Of a DNA stretch of 64,000 bases, positions 13,684 to 64,000 are shown piece by piece. The notes beneath the pieces are model-generated. The model did not search any database, was not told the DNA's origin, and was given only the letters and a program-made list of their open reading frames with translations. The translations under genes were made by a program, and so were the position numbers. The stretch covers positions 1 through 64,000 of the forward strand of contig JAJTXZ010000009.1 of the NCBI GenBank assembly GCA_021463195.1. Direction: 5' to 3'. Each line of letters starts with the position of its first letter. Position 1 is the first letter of the stretch. Origin of the DNA: Anaerolineae bacterium. GTDB taxonomy: Bacteria; Chloroflexota; Anaerolineae; UBA4142; SHND01.

Positions 13684-13775
13684 AGAGCGAATTTCTGATT
13701 CGGTTGTGGGGCAAGACCTTTCGGGTTTCCGGAAACCCGAAAGGTCTACCCACAAATCAAAGCGGAATCGGCTCT
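13684..13775. repeat. Palindromic repeat, GGGTTTCCGAAACCC family, copy 2
   Basis: Perfect inner palindrome 13714-13747 (34 nt, arms AGACCTTTCGGGTTTCC and its complement), then TTGTGGG/CCCACAA and outer AGAGC/GCTCT pairs. The outer wording matches copy 5 at 41.7 kb. Confidence 0.8.
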
Positions 13776-13822: not shown

Positions 13823-13918
13823 TCTGGTGATTACCCACATCTCGAAAACGCAGCGGATTTCCAGACCCTAAGGGTTTTCGAAAACCCTTAGGGTCTGGAA
13901 ATCCGGGCAATCACCAGA
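13823..13918. repeat. Palindromic repeat, GGGTTTTCGAAAACCC family, copy 3
   Basis: Perfect 52-nt palindrome 13854-13905 nested in outer arms CTGGTGATT (13824-13832) and AATCACCAG (13909-13917). Nearly identical to copy 4 at 21.7 kb. Its right half supplies the stop and last codons of the minus-strand gene at 13868. Confidence 0.85.
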
Positions 13919-21726: not shown

Positions 21727-21817
21727 GTGATTACCCATATCTCGAAAGCGCAGCGGATTTCCAGACCCCAAGGGTTTTCGAAAACCCTTGGGGTCTGGAA
21801 ATTCAGGTAATCACCAG
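21727..21817. repeat. Palindromic repeat, GGGTTTTCGAAAACCC family, copy 4
   Basis: Perfect 46-nt palindrome 21757-21802 within outer arms GTGATTACC (21727-21735) and GGTAATCAC. Sequence order and spacing match copy 3 at 13823-13918 almost base for base. A decayed relative follows (CCAGATTTCCAGACC near 21835, AATTATCAGAAAT near 21928). Confidence 0.85.
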
Positions 21818-21951
21818 AAATACGCTGGGGATAATCCAGATTTCCAGACCTGAAGGATTTGGCGCTAAAGCGCAGCGCAGAAAACTATCCAACTCTGCCA
21901 AGCTGCCGCGTTTTTGAAATGCAGGGAATTATCAGAAATGCGGTAAACGTT

Positions 21952-41663: not shown

Positions 41664-41788
41664 GGATAACGGCGGAACCTAGAGCAGATTTCTGATGAGT
41701 TCAAGGGACAAACCTTTCGGGTTTCCGAAACCCGAAAGGTTTTATCCCTTCCATCGAATAGGAATTCGCTCTCGTTCCGCTGTTATCC
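41664..41788. repeat. Long palindromic repeat between binding-protein and ATPase genes, family copy 5
   Basis: Inner stem 41710-41742 (AAACCTTTCGGGTTT / AAACCCGAAAGGTTT, 3-nt loop), then GGGACA/TATCCC-type, AGAGC/GCTCT, and outer arms GGATAACGGCGGAAC / GTTCCGCTGTTATCC (14 of 15 pair). It fills nearly the whole 160-nt gap. Confidence 0.85.
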
Positions 41789-44490: not shown

Positions 44491-47373
44491 ATGACAAACT
44501 TGAATATGACGGTCAACGGCAAACCTATTTCGATAGAGATCGAAGCGAACGAATATCTCGCGGCAGCGCTGCGTTACAAGCTCGGTTTGACGGGGACAAA
44601 AATTGGCTGTGATGAAGCGGAATGCGGCGCGTGCACTGTGATTGTGAATGGCACGCCGGTGGACTCGTGCATTTATCCCGCGCTCAAAGCGCAAGGCGCA
44701 GAGGTGTTGACGATTGAAGGATTGGCGCAAACCTGGGCTGCAACGGAACCGGGTGTAGCCACGGAACCGGGTGTAGCCACGGAACCGGGTGTAGTCACGG
44801 AACAGGGTGTAGTCACGGAACCGGGTTCCGTGACTACACCCGCCCTGCATCCGCTGCAAGCGCATTTCATTCATCAAGGCGCGCTGCAATGCGGTTATTG
44901 CACGCCGGGAATGTTGATGCAGAGCAAACATTTGCTTGACCACAATCCGAATCCGACGACCGATGAAATCAAGGTGGCGTTAAAGGATACGTTGTGTCGC
45001 TGCGGCGCGTACGTCGCGATTATGAATGCGATTCAATTCGCGGCGGAGGAAATGCGCGAGCCGAACGCCGCGCGCCAAACCGTGATTCCCAATTTGCCCG
45101 CGACCAAAGCGCCGCTCGACGTGATTGGCAAACCGCTGCCGCGTCCCGATGCGATTGCCAAAGCGACCGGCGCGGCAAAGTACACCGATGATTACGCGTT
45201 TCCCGATATGTTGTGGGGCGCGACGCTGCGCGCAAAATTTCCGCACGCCAAAATTTTAAAGCTTGACGTCGCGCAAGCGCAAGCGCTGCCCGGCGTGCGC
45301 GCGGTCTTGACGCATCACGATGTGCCGGGTTCCAAAAATCACGGTTTGATTTATAACGATTGGCCCGTGTTGTGTTACGACAAGGTGCGGTATCAAGGCG
45401 ATGCGGTCGCGATTGTGGCGGCGGACACGCGCGAAATCGCGCAGCGCGCGTTGGATTTAATCGAGGTCGCGTACGAGCCATTGCCGGTGGTGGACAATCC
45501 GGTGGATGCGTTGAAACCGGAAACGATTATTGTGAATGATGGGACGGGCCACGGCAATTTATTGAAACACATTCATGTCGAAAAGGGCGATATTGACAAA
45601 GGTTTCGCCGAAGCGGATGTGATTATCGAAAATGAATATCATTCGCCGTTTTATGAACACGCGTTTATGGAACCGGAATGTTCTATCGGGCGCGTGTTGG
45701 AGAATGGACGAATTGAAGTCATTTGCGGTTCGCAGATTCCGTACGAAGATCGCCGGCAAATCGCGGCGGCGTTGAATATGGAAGAGCGCGAGGTGCGCGT
45801 GCGCGGCGCGTTAATCGGCGGCGGCTTTGGCGGCAAAGAAGATATCGCCGCGCAAATTCATGTCGCGCTGTTGGCAAAAGCGACGGGGCGCCCGGTGAAA
45901 ATGTTGTACTCGCGTCACGAAAGTTTGGTGTCGCATCCCAAACGTCACGCGACAGTGATTCGCGTCAAAACGGGCGCGAAACAAGACGGCACGCTGGTAG
46001 CATCGCAAGCGACAATTTATGGCGACAGCGGCGCGTACGCGTCGCTCGGCGACAAGGTGATGACACGCGCGGCGACACATGCCGCAGGTCCCTACGCGGT
46101 GCCGAATGTGAAAATTGACTGCTATGCGATGTACACCAATAATCCGCCTGCAGGCGCGTTTCGCGGTTTTGGCGTCACGCAGTCCGCGTTTGCCGTCGAA
46201 TCGAATATGGATGAACTCGCGCATCAACTGAATATGGACCCGTTCGAACTGCGCCGTATGAACGCATTGCGAATTGGCAGCACGACGAGCACGGGCCAAG
46301 TGGTCAAAGAGAGCGCGGGATTGTTGGAATGTATTCGGCTTGTTGAGCAAGAGGTGAAAAGACAGAGAGACTCGAATCTCCAATCTCCAGTCTCCAAGCT
46401 CCAATCTTGGGGTTTCGCGGCGGCGTTCAAAAACACCGGTCTCGGCGGCGGCGCGCCCGACAAGAGCGCGGCAGAAGTCGAAGTGTTTGAAGATGGCACC
46501 GCTGAAGTGCGAAGCAGCGCGGCGGAAATCGGGCAGGGCTTGCCGACTGTTTTGGCGATGATTACGGCGGAGGAATTGGGTTTGCCGTATGAAAACGTGC
46601 GTGTCTTGTTGAGCGACACCGATTTGACGCCCGACGGGGGCCCCACCACCGCGTCGCGTCAAACGTTTGTCACGGGCAACGCGGCGCGCTATGCGGCTAA
46701 AGGGATGCGCGAAATTTTGGCGGAAACCGCGAGCGAATATCTCGACGCCGCGCCCGCGCAATTAACTTTTAAAGATGGTTACGTGAGTCAAAACGGACAC
46801 AAATTGCCGTTCGCCGAAATCGTGAAACGCGCGCGCCAAGAAAATCGCCCGACGCGTTATTTGCACGAATATTTCGCGCCCGCGACCAAACCGCTGGGCG
46901 TGGAAGGCGACATGCACTTTGGTTTTTCGTACGCGGCGCAAGCGGCGTTAATCGAGCTGGATCCCGACACCGGCGAAACGCATGTTTTGAAAATTGTGAC
47001 GGCGACGGACATTGGGCGCGCGTTGAATCCGCTCGCGCTGCAGGGCCAAGTCGAAGGCGGCATTATGATGTGTCTCGGCAATGCGCTCACCGAAGAATTT
47101 ATTGTCGAAAAGGGCAAAGTCTGGTCCGACTTGTTCGCGAAATATAAAATGCCGAGCATCAAGCATACTCCCGAAATCGTGTCGTTCATTGTCGAAGACG
47201 AAATTTCAGCGGGGCCCTTTGGCGCCAAAGGCGTCGGCGAAATTTCTTCGATTCCGACGACGCCCGCGATTACGAACGCGATTTATAATGCGTGCGGCGT
47301 GCGCGTGCGTCGCCTTCCCGTAGATCAGGACGCGTTGTTGCTAGCGATGCGCGCGGGAAAATTAGAGACTTGA
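44491..47373 (+). CDS. Xanthine dehydrogenase, fused [2Fe-2S] and molybdenum-binding subunits
   Basis: A 960-residue fusion. Residues 1-180 are the iron-sulfur part: plant-type cluster Cys40, 45, 48, 60 (GCDEAECGACTVIVNG) and second cluster CGYC (134, 137) with CRC (169, 171). Residues about 195-960 are the Moco part: GGGFGGKED near 445, GAFRGFGVTQSAFAVE near 555, AEIGQGLPT and GPFGAKGVGE with the catalytic Glu917. It oxidises hypoxanthine and xanthine. An 18-bp tandem repeat plus a palindrome inserts about 35 residues (83-117) between the two cluster domains, and a second repeat adds RDSNLQSPVSKLQS near 630. The FAD subunit is 38 nt upstream. Related purine hydroxylases are possible. Confidence 0.93.
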   Translation: MTNLNMTVNGKPISIEIEANEYLAAALRYKLGLTGTKIGCDEAECGACTVIVNGTPVDSCIYPALKAQGAEVLTIEGLAQTWAATEPGVATEPGVATEPGVVTEQGVVTEPGSVTTPALHPLQAHFIHQGALQCGYCTPGMLMQSKHLLDHNPNPTTDEIKVALKDTLCRCGAYVAIMNAIQFAAEEMREPNAARQTVIPNLPATKAPLDVIGKPLPRPDAIAKATGAAKYTDDYAFPDMLWGATLRAKFPHAKILKLDVAQAQALPGVRAVLTHHDVPGSKNHGLIYNDWPVLCYDKVRYQGDAVAIVAADTREIAQRALDLIEVAYEPLPVVDNPVDALKPETIIVNDGTGHGNLLKHIHVEKGDIDKGFAEADVIIENEYHSPFYEHAFMEPECSIGRVLENGRIEVICGSQIPYEDRRQIAAALNMEEREVRVRGALIGGGFGGKEDIAAQIHVALLAKATGRPVKMLYSRHESLVSHPKRHATVIRVKTGAKQDGTLVASQATIYGDSGAYASLGDKVMTRAATHAAGPYAVPNVKIDCYAMYTNNPPAGAFRGFGVTQSAFAVESNMDELAHQLNMDPFELRRMNALRIGSTTSTGQVVKESAGLLECIRLVEQEVKRQRDSNLQSPVSKLQSWGFAAAFKNTGLGGGAPDKSAAEVEVFEDGTAEVRSSAAEIGQGLPTVLAMITAEELGLPYENVRVLLSDTDLTPDGGPTTASRQTFVTGNAARYAAKGMREILAETASEYLDAAPAQLTFKDGYVSQNGHKLPFAEIVKRARQENRPTRYLHEYFAPATKPLGVEGDMHFGFSYAAQAALIELDPDTGETHVLKIVTATDIGRALNPLALQGQVEGGIMMCLGNALTEEFIVEKGKVWSDLFAKYKMPSIKHTPEIVSFIVEDEISAGPFGAKGVGEISSIPTTPAITNAIYNACGVRVRRLPVDQDALLLAMRAGKLET
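44743..44841. repeat. 18-bp tandem repeat and 37-nt palindrome within the xdh gene
   Basis: Four units of ACGGAACCGGGTGTAGCC (44743-44814, last two with small changes) run into a perfect palindrome 44805-44841 with 18-bp arms around one base. All in frame; they encode (TEPGVA)n and SVTTP. Confidence 0.92.
46368..46410. repeat. TCTCCAATCTCCAGTC repeat within the xdh gene
   Basis: In-frame copy of the GGAGATTGGAGACT family encoding SNLQSPVSKLQS in a loop of the Moco domain. Confidence 0.65.
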
Positions 47374-51640: not shown

Positions 51641-51834
51641 ACCCGCGCGCGCTTTGCGCGCGACGCGCGGATTCAAAATTTCAAGCTTGACGCGATGTGT
51701 CATTTTTCATTTCCTTTCGTATACTCAATGTCATCGCCAAAACCGCGTAACCCAAGTCGGACAGAATGAGGGCGAGCGTTACGCCGCGACCTTGGCTCAA
51801 ACGATGGATACGCAAATCTGATGAAAGATGAAGC

Positions 51835-54675
51835 ATGAACGAATTCTACCAACTCGATACTCAAGCCGTTCTTTTACAACTAGATAGCGACGCCCAACAG
51901 GGTTTGTCCGAGACGGCGGCAAAAGAGCGTTTGGAAAAATACGGTCCGAACGTGACGCAAGAGACCCGCGCGCGTTCGCCGTGGCTGATTTTTTTCGAGC
52001 AACTCAAAGCGACGATGGTGTTGATTCTCATCGCCGCCGCGATTGTGGCAGGGCTGCTCGGCTCGTGGAAAGATACGATTGCCATCGGCGCGATTGTCAT
52101 TTTGTTTGCGCTCGTCGGTTTTGTGCAGGAATATCGCGCCGAGCAGGCGATTGCGGCATTGAAAAAACTCGCGGTGCCGTTCGTGCGCGCTTTGCGCGGC
52201 GGGCAGGTGCGCGAAATCGCGTCGAATGCGCTCGTGCCGGGCGATGTGATTTTGCTCGAAACAGGCAATATCGTGTCGGCCGACGCGCGCGTGCTGGAAA
52301 GCGTGAATTTGCGCGTGCAAGAAGCCGCGCTCACCGGCGAATCGGAACCGATTGAAAAAATCGTCGCGCCGATGTCGCAGCCCGATCTCGCGCTCGGCGA
52401 CCGACGCAATATGTTGTATATGGGCACCGTGGTGACATACGGACGCGGCAAAGCGATTGTGACAGGCACGGGCGGACAAACCGAGCTGGGCAAAATCGCG
52501 CAGTTGATTTCGGATGTGCGCGGCGAACAAACGCCGCTGCAAAAGAAATTGGACCAACTGGGCCGTATGTTGGCGGTTGTCGGCATCGTGGTCGCGGCGG
52601 CGATTGTGGCGCTCGGTTTGCTGCGCGGCGGCGCGTTGACGCATTTTCTATTGACGGGGGTGAGCGTCGCGGTCGCGGTCGTGCCGGAAGGTTTGCCCGC
52701 GGTGGTGACGATCACGCTCGCGCTCGGCGCGCAGCGCATGTTGCGACGTAGGGCGCTGATTCGCAAGTTGCCCGCCGTCGAAACGCTTGGCTCGGTCACG
52801 GTAATCTGTTCGGATAAAACCGGCACGCTCACGGAAAACCGCATGACCGTAATCGCGCTCGATGTGGCAGGGCATCGCGTAGAGCTCGATCAAGAATTGA
52901 TTCGTAACGCGCCATCGTTGGTGTCTTATACGCAAATGCTGTCGCCGGATACCGCATCCAGCAGTGGCGGTATTCGGCAAGGGCAGGCGCTAACGCTGCT
53001 GCTCGCCGGCGGCGCGTTGTGCAACGATGCCGCGTTAAGCCAAGAAATCGGGCAGGGCAAATATCGCGCGCTGGGCGACCCGACCGAAGGCGCGCTGGTC
53101 GTCGCGGCGGCGCAGTTCGGTTTGTGGAAAGAGGAATTGGAACGTCTTTTGCCGCGAGTGGCGGAACTGCCATTTGATTCTGAACGCAAACGCATGACGA
53201 CGATGCACGATCTCGCGTTGTTCGCGACGCAATCGCCCGATGTGGCGATGCATGTATTTGAAAACAAACCGTTAGTCCAATTTACCAAAGGCAGCGTAGA
53301 TGGTCTCATCGCGCTCTCGAATCGTTTTTGGATGAATGGACGCGTCAATGCGTTGGACGATGCGACGCGCAAGCGAATTTTGGACGCGAATTACGATTTG
53401 GCAGCGCGCGGGATTCGCGTGTTGGGTTTGACGTTTCGACCTTTAGAGACAAATCCTCTGGCGGCGGCATCGTCTGACGCGGACGCCGCGACCCATTCAA
53501 TCGCTCAATTAAATGCGCAGGTTGAACGCGATTTGATATTTGTCGGACTGTTTGGCATGATTGATCCGCCGCGCGCCGAAGTGCGGGATGCTGTGACAAT
53601 GTGCAAAACGGCGGGCATTCGCCCCGTGATGATTACGGGCGACCATCCGCTCACGGCGCTTCAAATCGCCAAACAGTTGGGCATCGCGGAAGAAGACAGC
53701 CGCGCCATCACCGGACCGGAATTGGAAAAATTGTCCGTGAATGAATTGGAAGCGTTGGTGGACAATGTATCGGTCTATGCGCGCGTTTCGCCCGAACATA
53801 AATTGAAAATTGTCCAAGCGCTCCAGAATCGCGGCAATATTGTTTCGATGACGGGCGACGGGGTGAATGATGCGCCCGCGCTGCGTCGCGCTGATGTTGG
53901 CGTGGCGATGGGTATCACCGGCACGGATGTCTCTAAAGAAGCGTCGGATATTGTTTTGCTCGACGATAATTTTGCGACGATTGTGTCGGCGGTTGAAGAG
54001 GGGCGCGTCATTTATGATAACTTGCGCAAGTTTATCAAGTTCAGCATCGCGGGCAATATCGGCAAAGTGAGTGTGATGCTGCTCGCGCCGTTCATTGGCA
54101 CGGCGGTGCCGCTTTTGCCGCTGCAACTGTTATGGTTGAATGTATTGACGGATGGTTTGCTCGGTCTGGGCTTGGGTGTGGAAGAGGCGGAACGCGGCGT
54201 GATGAAACGCGCGCCCTATTCGCCGCAAGCGCCCGTGTTGAGCAAGGTGACGGTGGCGCATATTACGTGGGTCGGTTTGTTGATTGCGGCGCTTGCGCTC
54301 GGCGTGGGCTATTATTACGATATTACGCTGAACGTGCCGCAATGGCAATCCATGATTTTTACGACGCTCGCGTTCGCGCAAATGTTTCAAGCGTTCGCGG
54401 TGCGTTCAACCGATACATCGGTTTTTCGGATGAGTCTGTTGTCGAATCGGCTGCTGCTCGCCACGGCGACGCTGACGCTGTTTTTGCAGCTCGCGGTGTT
54501 GTACGTTCCGTTCTTGCAAACGTTTTTTAATACGGCGCCGTTAGTGTGGTATGACTTGCTGCTTTGCATCGGCTTGGGCGCGCTGGTGCTTGTGGGCATC
54601 GAGTTTGAAAAATGGGTGAGTCGGCGCGGCGGAACCAAGTCAACCGCAGCTCATTCGGCTGCGCCCGAGATATGA
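51835..54675 (+). CDS. P-type cation-transporting ATPase (type II, Ca2+-like)
   Basis: A 946-residue P-type ATPase. It has the cation-transporter N-terminal domain, actuator loop ALTGESEPIEK, the M4 motif VPEGLPAVVTITLALG that marks type IIA/IIB calcium-like pumps, phosphorylation site SDKTGTLTENRMTV, hinge MITGDHPLTA and MTGDGVNDAPALRRADVGVAMG. About ten membrane helices. It would move Ca2+, or possibly Mn2+ or Na+, out of the cell. No regulatory partner is seen. It stands alone after Vsr. Confidence 0.92.
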   Translation: MNEFYQLDTQAVLLQLDSDAQQGLSETAAKERLEKYGPNVTQETRARSPWLIFFEQLKATMVLILIAAAIVAGLLGSWKDTIAIGAIVILFALVGFVQEYRAEQAIAALKKLAVPFVRALRGGQVREIASNALVPGDVILLETGNIVSADARVLESVNLRVQEAALTGESEPIEKIVAPMSQPDLALGDRRNMLYMGTVVTYGRGKAIVTGTGGQTELGKIAQLISDVRGEQTPLQKKLDQLGRMLAVVGIVVAAAIVALGLLRGGALTHFLLTGVSVAVAVVPEGLPAVVTITLALGAQRMLRRRALIRKLPAVETLGSVTVICSDKTGTLTENRMTVIALDVAGHRVELDQELIRNAPSLVSYTQMLSPDTASSSGGIRQGQALTLLLAGGALCNDAALSQEIGQGKYRALGDPTEGALVVAAAQFGLWKEELERLLPRVAELPFDSERKRMTTMHDLALFATQSPDVAMHVFENKPLVQFTKGSVDGLIALSNRFWMNGRVNALDDATRKRILDANYDLAARGIRVLGLTFRPLETNPLAAASSDADAATHSIAQLNAQVERDLIFVGLFGMIDPPRAEVRDAVTMCKTAGIRPVMITGDHPLTALQIAKQLGIAEEDSRAITGPELEKLSVNELEALVDNVSVYARVSPEHKLKIVQALQNRGNIVSMTGDGVNDAPALRRADVGVAMGITGTDVSKEASDIVLLDDNFATIVSAVEEGRVIYDNLRKFIKFSIAGNIGKVSVMLLAPFIGTAVPLLPLQLLWLNVLTDGLLGLGLGVEEAERGVMKRAPYSPQAPVLSKVTVAHITWVGLLIAALALGVGYYYDITLNVPQWQSMIFTTLAFAQMFQAFAVRSTDTSVFRMSLLSNRLLLATATLTLFLQLAVLYVPFLQTFFNTAPLVWYDLLLCIGLGALVLVGIEFEKWVSRRGGTKSTAAHSAAPEI

Positions 54676-59956: not shown

Positions 59957-61213
59957 ATGCGCTTGCAATGCACCCTCTGCGGCAAAACGTACGCGCTCGA
60001 TTCATTGAAATACGTTTGTCCCGATCACGGCAACGACGGCATTCTCGATGTCGTGTACGATTACGCCGAAATCAATCGCGTCACGTCACCTGAAAAAATT
60101 TCCGCGTCGCGTGAAAATTCGATTTGGCGCTATTGGGATTTATTGCCGTTAAAAAATCGCGCGGATATTCCAAAACTCCAAGTCGGTTGGACGCCAATGT
60201 ATCGCGCGAAATTTTTGGGCGCGCAGTTGGGCTTGGAAAATTTGTACATCAAAGACGATGGGCGCAATCCCACCGCGTCGTACAAAGACCGTCCGAGCGC
60301 GGTTGTCGTGGCAAAAGCGCGCGAGTTGGGCGAACGCGTCATCACCACCGCGTCGAGCGGCAACGCGGGCGCGGCGTTGGCGGGCATGGCGGCAAGCGCG
60401 CACATTCCCGCTGTGATTTTCGTGCCCGAATCCGCGCCACAAGCAAAAATCACACAACTGTTGATTTACGGCGCGCGCGTCTTGCTCGTGCGCGGCACGT
60501 ATGACCAAGCGAGCGATTTGTGCCTCGCCGCGGCAAAAGAATTTGGCTGGTACTGCCGCAACACCGCGTACAATCCGTATACCACCGAAGGCAAAAAAAC
60601 CGGCGCGCTGGAGATTTGCGAACAGTTGGCAATCTCTAGTCTCCAGTCTCCAATCTCCAAATGGCTCGCGCCTGATAGAATTTTCGTCAGCGTCGGCGAC
60701 GGCAACATCATTGGCGGAATTTGGAAAGGGCTGCGCGATTTGTTTGCGCTCGGTTGGATTGACAAGATGCCAAAACTAATGGGCATTCAAGCGGAAGGCA
60801 GCGCGGCGTGCTACAACGCGTGGAAGGCGGGAACGGAAGAAATTACCGCGATTGAGGCGCATACGATTGCGGATTCGATTGACGTGGGGTTGCCGCGCGA
60901 TGGACGACGCGCGGTGCGCGCGGTGCGCGCGACGAACGGCGAATTTATCACGGTGAGCGATGAGGAAATTTTGCAAGCGATGCCGCAACTCGCGCGCGGC
61001 GAAGCGGTGTTTGCGGAACCTGCCGCGTCCGCCGCATACGCCGGACTCGTAAAGGCGGTTCACGCGCAAAAAATTGACCGCGACGAAACGGTTGTGGTGG
61101 TGATTACGGGCAATGGATTAAAAGATGTGAAAAGCGCGATGCGCGCGGCGGGAGAGGCGACGGTGATAGAGCCGACGTTGGAGGCGGTAAAGAGATTGGA
61201 GATTAGAGATTAG
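59957..61213 (+). CDS. Threonine-synthase-like PLP enzyme with N-terminal zinc ribbon
   Basis: A 418-residue fold-type-II PLP protein. The N-terminus LQCTLCGKTYALDSLKYVC carries a rubredoxin-like zinc ribbon as in archaeal-type ThrC. PLP lysine in RNPTASYKDRPSA; TTASSGNAGAALAGMAAS; SVGDGN phosphate loop; GNGLKDV at the end. It belongs to the threonine synthase family, but thrC already exists at 11967 and this copy is in the yge block, so it may act on diaminopropionate or another beta- or gamma-substituted amino acid. Residues about 228-236 (SSLQSPISK) come from a repeat insertion. Confidence 0.87.
   Translation: MRLQCTLCGKTYALDSLKYVCPDHGNDGILDVVYDYAEINRVTSPEKISASRENSIWRYWDLLPLKNRADIPKLQVGWTPMYRAKFLGAQLGLENLYIKDDGRNPTASYKDRPSAVVVAKARELGERVITTASSGNAGAALAGMAASAHIPAVIFVPESAPQAKITQLLIYGARVLLVRGTYDQASDLCLAAAKEFGWYCRNTAYNPYTTEGKKTGALEICEQLAISSLQSPISKWLAPDRIFVSVGDGNIIGGIWKGLRDLFALGWIDKMPKLMGIQAEGSAACYNAWKAGTEEITAIEAHTIADSIDVGLPRDGRRAVRAVRATNGEFITVSDEEILQAMPQLARGEAVFAEPAASAAYAGLVKAVHAQKIDRDETVVVVITGNGLKDVKSAMRAAGEATVIEPTLEAVKRLEIRD
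60631..60660. repeat. TCTCCAGTCTCCAATC repeat inside the ThrC-like gene
   Basis: In-frame copy of the GGAGATTGGAGACT family, coding ISSLQSPISK. Confidence 0.65.
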
Positions 61214-61230
61214 AGATTGGAGATTGGAAC
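61190..61230. repeat. GAGATTGGAGATTAG tandem repeat at a gene junction
   Basis: Tandem units supply the last codons of the ThrC-like gene (RLEIRD), its stop, and the TTG start region of the next gene. Confidence 0.75.
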
Positions 61231-63119
61231 GCGCGCGGTTTGCTCCACTCGTTATTCTGGCACTCACATTACTGTGGTATGTGGCGTTGGTGATTCGTTT
61301 TCCCACGCGCGGCGCGATTGGGACGGATCCCGCGACGTATGTTCAAATGGCGCTTGATCTCGCGCAGCGCGGCACGGTCGTACACAATTTTCCGCTCTTT
61401 ACAAAATTATTTAATCAAGGTTTGAGTTGGGACGCGTTTATCACGCCCGGTTATCACATCGTTGGCAAAACGGGATTCGTCGTGCCAAACTTTGCGTTCG
61501 GGTTTCCGCTGCTGCTCGCGTTCGGCTATCGCGTCTTTGGCGAAAACGCGTTGTATTGGATGACGCCGCTGCTCGGCGCGTTTTCGCTGACAATGACGTT
61601 CGCGTTGGCGAATGAATTGTTCCGCGATGTTTCACCAACGCGACGCTATTGGATTGGCGCGCTGGCGGTTTTATTGTTGGCGACATCGCCGAAACAAATT
61701 CAACTGTCGCTCGTGCCAATGTCCGATGTGCCGACGCAACTGTTTTGCGTATTGGCGGTGTGGTGCGCGCTGCGCGTGTCGCGCCCTGACACAGTACATC
61801 ACAATTTACCTTTTTGGACGCGGATTTTCGCGGATAAACGCGGATTTCTAAACCGTTTTTTCTGTTTCCGCGTTCATCCGCGTTTATCCGCGTCCCAATC
61901 TGTGATGTGCTGTGACAGGTTTCGGCGATGCAGTTCATTGCAAAGACCTGTCAGGTTTTGTACATTCGCCGCGCTGTGCGGCCTGGTGCTCGGCATCGCG
62001 TATTTGATTCGACATTCCGCGGTAGTATTGTTCGTTCCGCTTGGGATTGCGACATTCCGTTGGGGTAATACGCGGCGTGAAAAAATTTTGCTGCTTGGCG
62101 TCGCGTTGATTGTTTTTGCAATCACGATTTTGCCCGATTTTATTTATCGCGTGAATGTGTTGGGCAGCCCGTTCGCCGTCGAAAGTCCCGAAAGCGCGCA
62201 AGTGAATTTTTATGACGCGCCGCGTCAATTTTTGCAAATGCTCGGCGCATTATTTTCGGTGACGGGCTTTGGACCGATTGTGATGCTCGCGCCGTTCGCA
62301 TGGTGGATTCTGTGGCGCGAACAAAAGAGCCATGTTCGACAAATTTGCAATTTGTCAGATGCGCGCATGGAAAACCGCGAGACAAATTACAAAGTTATCT
62401 TACCTTTTCATAGTAGATTCGTGGCAGCCATTTTAATTGCGTGGATTCTCGCGTTCATGCTGTTGCACGCGCCACTCGTTTTGACCGGCGTGTTTGAAAA
62501 TAATTTGCGCTATCTCGTTCCCGCGTATCCGGCGCTTGCGCTTTCGATTGCTTTTGGGTTTGTGACGTTGTGGGAATGGGCGTGGCGCGCATTTCAACCG
62601 CGTCGTAAACCGTACCAGATTCGCGTCAAACCGAATCGCTGGGAAATCGCGCTGCTCGGCGCCATCGCCGCAACATTCTTTTTGGCGCTTTCATTACGCG
62701 CATTGATTGGCCCCGAACGCTTTGTCGCGCGCGCGTATGGCTGGATGAGCGAAACGGCGCGGAATGATTTGAACGCGTTGAATGAAAAATTGCCGCGCGA
62801 TGCGGTAATTGGCGTTTCGGACCAAATGGCAGGCGCGACATTATTATACGCGCAGCGCGATATTTTTCGCCCAAACAATTTTTTAGAACCCGCGCGCGAG
62901 TTTCCACAATTTTTACAAACGATGAAAAACGAAAACCGCGCGGTGTTTTTGTTGGGCGAGTGGAATTGCGCGGGGGAGGCGAGCGAGAGATTGCCAGAGT
63001 GGATGGAGGAATATGAGATTGGAGATTGGAGACTGGAGACTCGTCCCGAGTGGCAACGAGAGATTCGAGATTTGCCCTACGAATGTTCACAACATCTATA
63101 TCAATTTAACGGAGAGTAA
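61224..63119 (+). CDS. Glycosyltransferase-like multi-pass membrane protein with in-frame repeat insertion
   Basis: A 631-residue protein with about ten hydrophobic segments, resembling the ArnT/PMT (GT39-like) group: an acidic GTDPATYVQMALDLAQRG after the first helix and LVPAYPALALSIAFG late. It may transfer lipid-linked sugars. Residues about 189-244 are read from palindromic repeat DNA (61788-61953) between two membrane segments, while the frame stays open. Near the C-terminus YEIGDWRLETRPE is another repeat-coded piece. The TTG at 61224 is the likely start, inside a repeat. Its presence in an amino-acid/purine block is unexplained. Confidence 0.72.
   Translation: MERARFAPLVILALTLLWYVALVIRFPTRGAIGTDPATYVQMALDLAQRGTVVHNFPLFTKLFNQGLSWDAFITPGYHIVGKTGFVVPNFAFGFPLLLAFGYRVFGENALYWMTPLLGAFSLTMTFALANELFRDVSPTRRYWIGALAVLLLATSPKQIQLSLVPMSDVPTQLFCVLAVWCALRVSRPDTVHHNLPFWTRIFADKRGFLNRFFCFRVHPRLSASQSVMCCDRFRRCSSLQRPVRFCTFAALCGLVLGIAYLIRHSAVVLFVPLGIATFRWGNTRREKILLLGVALIVFAITILPDFIYRVNVLGSPFAVESPESAQVNFYDAPRQFLQMLGALFSVTGFGPIVMLAPFAWWILWREQKSHVRQICNLSDARMENRETNYKVILPFHSRFVAAILIAWILAFMLLHAPLVLTGVFENNLRYLVPAYPALALSIAFGFVTLWEWAWRAFQPRRKPYQIRVKPNRWEIALLGAIAATFFLALSLRALIGPERFVARAYGWMSETARNDLNALNEKLPRDAVIGVSDQMAGATLLYAQRDIFRPNNFLEPAREFPQFLQTMKNENRAVFLLGEWNCAGEASERLPEWMEEYEIGDWRLETRPEWQREIRDLPYECSQHLYQFNGE
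61788..61953. repeat. Two palindromic elements inside the glycosyltransferase-like gene
   Basis: Element 1 (61788-61916): outer arms GACACAGTACATCACAATT and the near-complement ending at 61916; inner arms 61816-61844 and 61867-61895 built of GCGGATAAACGCGGA units pair at 25 of 29 positions. Element 2 (61913-61953): TGACAGGT and ACCTGTCA. Together about 166 nt without a stop in the host frame. Confidence 0.85.
63015..63043. repeat. GAGATTGGAGACTGGAGACT repeat near the 3' end of the glycosyltransferase-like gene
   Basis: In-frame plus-orientation copy coding EIGDWRLET. Confidence 0.65.
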
Positions 63120-63124
63120 TCATC

Positions 63125-64000
63125 ATGTCAGCAATACTGGGCCCCACCTTTGAAGAAATGTTACATCCCCAAAAAATCGCGCCGGAAATTCGCGCGCAAG
63201 CGTTGGAGATGAAAACGCAAGACCCGCTCGACCCCATCAATTTGTTCAACATCACTTGGCGCGATGGGAACAATCAAATTTATTATTTCGTCATGCCGAA
63301 ACAACTCACGGGCGTTGACGCGAATATCGTCGTCTTGTACGGCAAACAATTTCCGACGGGCGCGCACAAAGTCGGCGCGGCGTATTCGTGTTTGATTGAA
63401 AAAGAATTGTTCGGTGAGGTTGACCCGCGCGTGCATACGCTCGTGTGGCCCTCGACGGGCAATTACGGCATCGGCGGCGCGTGGGTCGGCTGCCGCATGG
63501 GTTTCGATTCGCTCGTCGTTTTGCCCGAAGGGATGAGCGCGGAACGCTTTCAGCAAATCGAATCGTATGGCGCGCGCATTATCAAGACGCCCGGCTCGGA
63601 ATCGAACGTCAAAGAAATTTACGACAAGACACATGAACTCGCGCAAAATCCAAACGTTCGCGTTCTCAATCAATTCAGCGAGATGGGCAATTATCGTTTT
63701 CATTATCACGTCACGGGCAACACGATTGTGGAACTCGCGGCGGAATTAAAGAGACTGGAGATTGGAGACGGGAGCATTAGCGCGTACTGCTCCGCAATGG
63801 GCAGCGCGGGAACGATTGCGGCGGGCGACAGATTAAAGCAAGTGTTTGGCACAAAAATTATCGGACTGGAACCGATTCAATGCCCGACGCTCTTTAACAA
63901 TGGTTACGGCGTGCATGATATTCAAGGCATCGGCGACAAGCATGTGACGTGGATTCATAATGTGCTGAATCAAGACGCCATCATGTGCATTGATGACATT
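63125..64000 (+). CDS. PLP-dependent enzyme (cysteine synthase/threonine synthase fold), 3' end cut
   Basis: 292 codons are visible from the ATG at 63125 and the frame is open at the window edge. It is a fold-type-II PLP protein: GKQFPTGAHKVGAAYSCLIE holds the likely PLP lysine (near residue 84), VWPSTGNYGIGGAWVGCRMG follows, then CSAMGSAGTIAAGD as phosphate loop. The N-terminal part (about 60 residues) before the fold resembles no ThrC. It is the third such enzyme in the block and a candidate for a diaminopropionate or substituted-amino-acid lyase. Residues about 209-218 (KRLEIGDGSI) are repeat-coded. Confidence 0.85.
   Translation, partial: MSAILGPTFEEMLHPQKIAPEIRAQALEMKTQDPLDPINLFNITWRDGNNQIYYFVMPKQLTGVDANIVVLYGKQFPTGAHKVGAAYSCLIEKELFGEVDPRVHTLVWPSTGNYGIGGAWVGCRMGFDSLVVLPEGMSAERFQQIESYGARIIKTPGSESNVKEIYDKTHELAQNPNVRVLNQFSEMGNYRFHYHVTGNTIVELAAELKRLEIGDGSISAYCSAMGSAGTIAAGDRLKQVFGTKIIGLEPIQCPTLFNNGYGVHDIQGIGDKHVTWIHNVLNQDAIMCIDDI
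63750..63775. repeat. GAGACTGGAGATTGGAGAC repeat inside the PLP gene
   Basis: In-frame copy of the same family, coding RLEIGDGS in a loop. Confidence 0.6.

Follow-up and report, generated by a model that had tools for sequence, protein, structure and literature searches.

Rickettsia palindromic elements (RPEs) are described in PMC10969869, after Ogata 2000 and 2002, as multicopy palindromes of about 100 to 150 nt that lie in frame in unrelated genes; they come in several families per genome, are also extragenic, and add 30 to 50 residues to a gene without destroying it. In-frame insertion is not restricted to Rickettsia, as intragenic REPs occur in many genera (PMC3733652). GTAG/CGTC REPs are short, mostly intergenic palindromes of which a minority are read through in ORFs, and in recB of X. 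campestris and of X. oryzae roughly one and the same position is occupied by different REPs (PMC3733652). Bacterial MITEs (ERIC, QMITE1, and the Anabaena MITEs) are non-autonomous, dispersed, inverted-repeat elements that are sometimes fused in frame to ORFs (PMC10969869). The open-license papers that we searched contained no report of such inserts for the lineage studied here.

We analyzed a 64,000-nt stretch of an Anaerolineae bacterium genome (the window), in which a gene of 631 codons (61224 to 63119, + strand; TTG start, frame open from 61191) is read through a palindromic element at 61788 to 61953. Like RPEs, this element is a multicopy palindrome (129 + 41 nt) that lies in frame in three genes of its own genome and is missing from orthologs; it differs from them in its host, in having a second hairpin next to a core of decamer periodicity, and in that most of its copies are intergenic. 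A preliminary description of the locus had proposed RPE-like behavior, i.e., invasion of a gene that stays translatable, and our results support this in the sense that the element appears to work like an RPE; the likeness is one of structure and behavior, and family membership is not claimed. Very probably, a non-autonomous, REP/MITE-like palindromic repeat has entered the coding sequence for a PMT-type glycosyltransferase, where it is tolerated in frame as a loop extension.

The host gene is flanked by two genes for PLP-dependent (PALP) enzymes, the upstream one threonine-synthase-like. Its product can be classed as a PMT-type (GT-C) membrane glycosyltransferase, in keeping with the preliminary description: the ortholog in congeneric genome G004 (L094) matches PF02366 (Pfam PMT) with an E value of 6.8e-6, above the cutoff, and the matched region spans the insertion site. 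A PDB search with an ortholog gave no useful match. Same-genus orthologs (G001, G003, and G004, plus a G005 copy cut by a contig end) share 55 to 81% identity.

The element (61788 to 61953, + strand; translated as DTVHHNLPFWTRIFADKRGF...RLSASQSVMCCDRFRRCSSLQRPV) is found neither in L094 nor in other genera and has near full-length copies at L305 and L304. Its first palindrome (129 nt, 61788 to 61916) consists of a left outer arm, GACACAGTACATCAC (61788 to 61802), a right outer arm, GTGATGTGCTGTGAC (61902 to 61916), and between them a core (61816 to 61896) in which a short spacer separates three 10-nt ACGCGGATNN-type units from three such units in inverse orientation. The second hairpin, or P part (41 nt, 61913 to 61953; TGACAGGTTT ... 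AAGACCTGTCA), overlaps the first palindrome by TGAC and is also found in the L305 and L304 copies. These had initially been reported as two adjacent palindromes of 129 and 41 nt. The lengths and positions stand, but the two are not separate: the whole composite occurs at near full length in G005:C25, where it is apparently intergenic, and on the opposite strand of G001:C180, and since both keep the same order we treat the two parts as one composite element with two hairpins. The parts also occur in other settings. The left arm is found at 17 places in its own genome with ≤2 mismatches (reversed control, 4), the outer arms TGACACAGTACATCAC and GTGATGTRCTGTGACA that surround the core here enclose a different one, of the GGACACAGATTTC type, in other copies, and the P-type palindrome AGACCTGACAGGTTT is present elsewhere in the genome and at the same site of the G001 ortholog.

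RNA folding of positions 61780 to 61965, one of the checks suggested at the outset, gave −87.1 kcal/mol compared to a shuffle mean of −46.4 (z score of −10.6; none of 200 shuffles as good), and an Rfam search with the element returned only a subthreshold microRNA match. In an alignment of 17 copies, the core consensus TTTGGACGCGGATTAACGCGGATGAACGCGGATT...ATCCGCGTTNATCCGCGTTTATCCGCGTCC comprises three blocks with 6 to 7 conserved pairs each. The GCGGAT blocks are conserved and pair mutually, and the intervening 3-nt spacers vary independently; there were no compensatory pair changes in the core hairpin among the 17 copies. Maintenance of the hairpin by compensatory change was accordingly rejected, and selection at the RNA level is unsupported. 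Because the spacers vary independently and compensatory changes are lacking, conservation of the core may operate at the level of DNA and not of RNA.

Several features bear on how the element relates to known mobile repeats. It shares with MITEs a non-autonomous, inverted-repeat, dispersed character, terminal inverted repeats (a MITE criterion), and in-frame ORF fusions, but no parental insertion sequence carrying its ends and no target-site duplication were identified. TGACA is present on both sides and may be either a target-site duplication or part of the arms; it cannot be assigned as a duplication, since the arms themselves run on into AAGACCTG. We found no transposase gene that carries the element's ends or lies beside it, and none of the inspected flanks of the four Y1_Tnp matches in the genome contained it. 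Two Y1 transposases with flanking palindromes (L123 and L124) border other, GTAG-type repeats, and mobilization of the family by a RAYT has no supporting linkage to Y1-type transposase genes. At L124 (G000:C70), a Y1-type (RAYT-like) gene, GTAGGGGCAAAGCATTG palindromes flank the gene and copies lie apparently in frame inside it. The core ends contain CGTC as part of CCGCGTCC, and by eye the aligned unit appears to be a 10-nt tandem and not a short stem-loop. The element resembles intragenic REPs in that different palindromes occupy one site, as in Xanthomonas recB, but differs from GTAG/CGTC REPs in that its core does not look like a short-stem unit with a GTAG tag and no transposase is adjacent. 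The GTAG-type repeats at 44750 to 44842 in the window are a separate family.

To gauge the extent of the family, we searched for the 17-mer CGCGGATAAACGCGGAT in the 4.72-Mb genome, which contained 13 exact matches and 36 with ≤1 mismatch (reversed control, 0). BLAST gave 62 matches at about 25 to 30 places, mostly intergenic, so that copies lie both in and out of genes, as the preliminary description had proposed to look for. A codon-based survey of 26 places found 3 copies read through inside long coding frames, namely, the PMT gene insert, C105:16557-16644, and C100:68951-69021, and nearly all of the rest were intergenic or at gene ends. Copies L302 and L303, in long open frames of 377 and 313 amino acids, look like spurious gene-border frames and were not counted. 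Among 150 genomes of the class, 11 had exact matches to the 17-mer and none had control matches. The 17-mer was also present in many other phyla, sometimes in clear tandem or inverted arrays, among the matches listed from a 257-Gb collection; because chance single matches are expected in a collection of that size, we do not claim common ancestry across phyla. Decamer arrays (e.g., ACGCAGATAAACGCGGATAAACGCGGAT) were seen in distant phyla, including cyanobacteria (L134, L137, L150, L160, L170, and L201) and archaea (L159, L161, and L199), for which descent, transfer, and convergence are each possible.

The insert is stop-free in exactly one of its six frames, that of the host gene, so the 631-codon frame is read through without a stop, as first noted. 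Compared to orthologs, it adds about 55 residues, also as first estimated, between the segment ending in ..WCALRV and ..FAALCGLVLGIAYLIRH, and its translation contains the predicted tryptic peptide LSASQSVMCCDR. Hydropathy places it in a predicted loop between hydrophobic segments. Only about 35% of frames among sampled family copies are stop-free, and the length requirement adds a further factor of 1/3; intact frames are therefore best seen as a selected outcome.

Orthologs show what can stand at this site. The G004 ortholog has no insert there, and in other families, e.g., G007, G008, G048, and G032, the flanking matches lie 0 to 21 nt (0 to 7 codons) apart. The same loop of the G003 ortholog holds the in-frame sequence TGTCATTTCGAGC..CGAAATGACA, which is multicopy in G003 (10 matches) and has one weak match in the genome studied here, while that of G001 holds an in-frame P-type palindrome, CCTGACAGGTTT..AAACCTGTCAGG, which arm sequence suggests is homologous to the 41-nt part. 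The preliminary description had recommended comparison with insert-free orthologs and had named as an outcome that would count against it the presence, in many other genera, of a conserved domain at this position; no such domain is there, and a conserved domain at the insertion site was rejected, the orthologs being empty or differently filled. A second loop of the gene shows the same variability. An in-frame palindromic insert of the GACAAATTTGCAATTTGTC family (approximately 62333 to 62419, + strand), absent from G001 and G004, has two other long copies in the genome (C54 and C78; 79% identical), and G003 carries a different sequence, GATTGCTTCGT..CGCAATGACAA. Near the C terminus, the repeat-derived segment GGAGATTGGAGACTGGAGA (63017 to 63063, + strand) exceeds its counterparts in G001 and G004 by about 8 codons.

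The two further genes with in-frame core copies were compared in the same way. The C105 gene has a 51-codon insert where five sister species have 0 to 12 codons. In one loop of the C100 gene, which encodes a membrane protein, the core is common to our genome, G003, and G002 and leaves the frame intact, and other species have TCATTGCGAGG-type palindromes (G005 and G001) or a AAGGACGAAGG-type tandem (G004). Syntenic genes upstream of the host gene contain further repeat-derived in-frame inserts that vary among species.

Other repeats were noted in and around the window. Four copies of GTGTAGCCACGGAACCGG, the GTAG-type REP at 44750 to 44842, add 35 residues in frame between Fer2 and Fer2_2 of a 1,009-amino-acid molybdenum-hydroxylase-type protein whose G004 ortholog is without them. 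A GGAGATTGGAGATTAGAGA-type tandem forms the end of the threonine-synthase-like gene (61198 to 61229) and supplies its stop, and tandems of this type also lie in frame within that gene (60630 to 60665) and within the next PLP enzyme gene (63745 to 63775). The threonine-synthase-like gene of G003 (L283) contains CCTTCGACTGGCTCAGGGCAAGA (PSTGSGQ) in frame, an insert that four congeners lack, and in G005 a P-type ATPase gene (L284) orthologous to 51832 to 54672 has an in-frame TCATTGCGAGC..GCTCCTCGCAATGACA-type palindrome of 26 residues, absent from G003. Perfect or near-perfect palindromes of the CCAGACCC(T/C)AAGGGTTTTC or AAACCTTTCGGGTTTCCG type are found at 13707 to 13754, 13854 to 13905, 21757 to 21860, and 41710 to 41742; no frame longer than 100 amino acids contains any of them.

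What distinguishes this system is the composite structure together with the way in which unrelated families have come to occupy the same loops again and again. The PMT loop is very probably a permissive site that has been hit repeatedly by unrelated elements. We consider it possible, though doubtful, that palindromic elements of this lineage are in addition attracted to certain protein loops or to one another's hairpins, the latter by nesting at palindrome centers; if so, a few membrane-protein loops would be landing pads that steadily yield new translated loop sequence. It is improbable that the added loop serves as a domain under selection for a function, or as a regulatory hairpin, instead of being tolerated selfish DNA. 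Retention of the C100 element in frame in three species would fit such a role, but orthologs have unrelated sequences or nothing at the corresponding sites, the insert matches no domain, and the peptide follows from a DNA repeat common to unrelated genes. The element is probably without benefit for its host gene.

Decay of the host gene, the other outcome that the preliminary description had named against itself, is contradicted by substitution rates outside the inserts. With inserts left out, dN/dS between our copy and that of G003 is 0.148/0.753, or about 0.2. This pair comprises two invaded copies, since G003 bears other inserts; measured from the outgroups G001 and G004, pN values for our copy and G003 are equal (0.208 versus 0.205; 0.251 versus 0.246), so that the uninvaded G004 copy is similarly distant from both. 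The insert-bearing lineage is thus neither relaxed nor accelerated, and this, together with the low dN/dS, indicates that the gene is not decaying. For this PMT gene, the dN/dS ratio points to purifying selection and to a function retained. A pseudogene whose frame stayed open by chance after insertion would explain why our insert-bearing copy matched no Pfam family, PF02366 included, in the domain search, but 631 codons are intact after at least two inserts, there is no acceleration relative to the sister lineage, and the neighboring genes are conserved; we regard this explanation as very improbable. The chance that a repeat was misjoined into the gene during assembly seems slighter still: the draft genome has 143 contigs and the element is multicopy, but the best other copies in the genome are only 84 to 85% identical, making the insert unique sequence for an assembler, and comparable in-frame inserts occupy the same loops in other assemblies.

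The tolerated-insertion reading leads to a simple model. The element would insert widely, moved in trans at some time past or present, and genic copies would persist when frame and loop permit. Survival would depend (i) on the length of the element and one of its six frames keeping the host frame open and (ii) on its having landed in a loop that lies between hydrophobic segments and can accommodate added residues. The product would be a working enzyme, translated and folded with a loop extension of roughly 55 residues.

These data extend RPE-like invasion of coding sequences, for which Rickettsia and a few REP-bearing bacteria had been the main examples, to an environmental bacterial genus of the Chloroflexota with genomes of about 4 to 7 Mb. 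They also carry a warning, in that domain searches can miss proteins split by such inserts. Across six congeneric genomes, one and the same gene may have its site vacant, filled by the element, or filled by something else, making it testable whether selfish DNA recurrently rewrites protein loops, which of these loops permit it, and how inserts age once they are translated.
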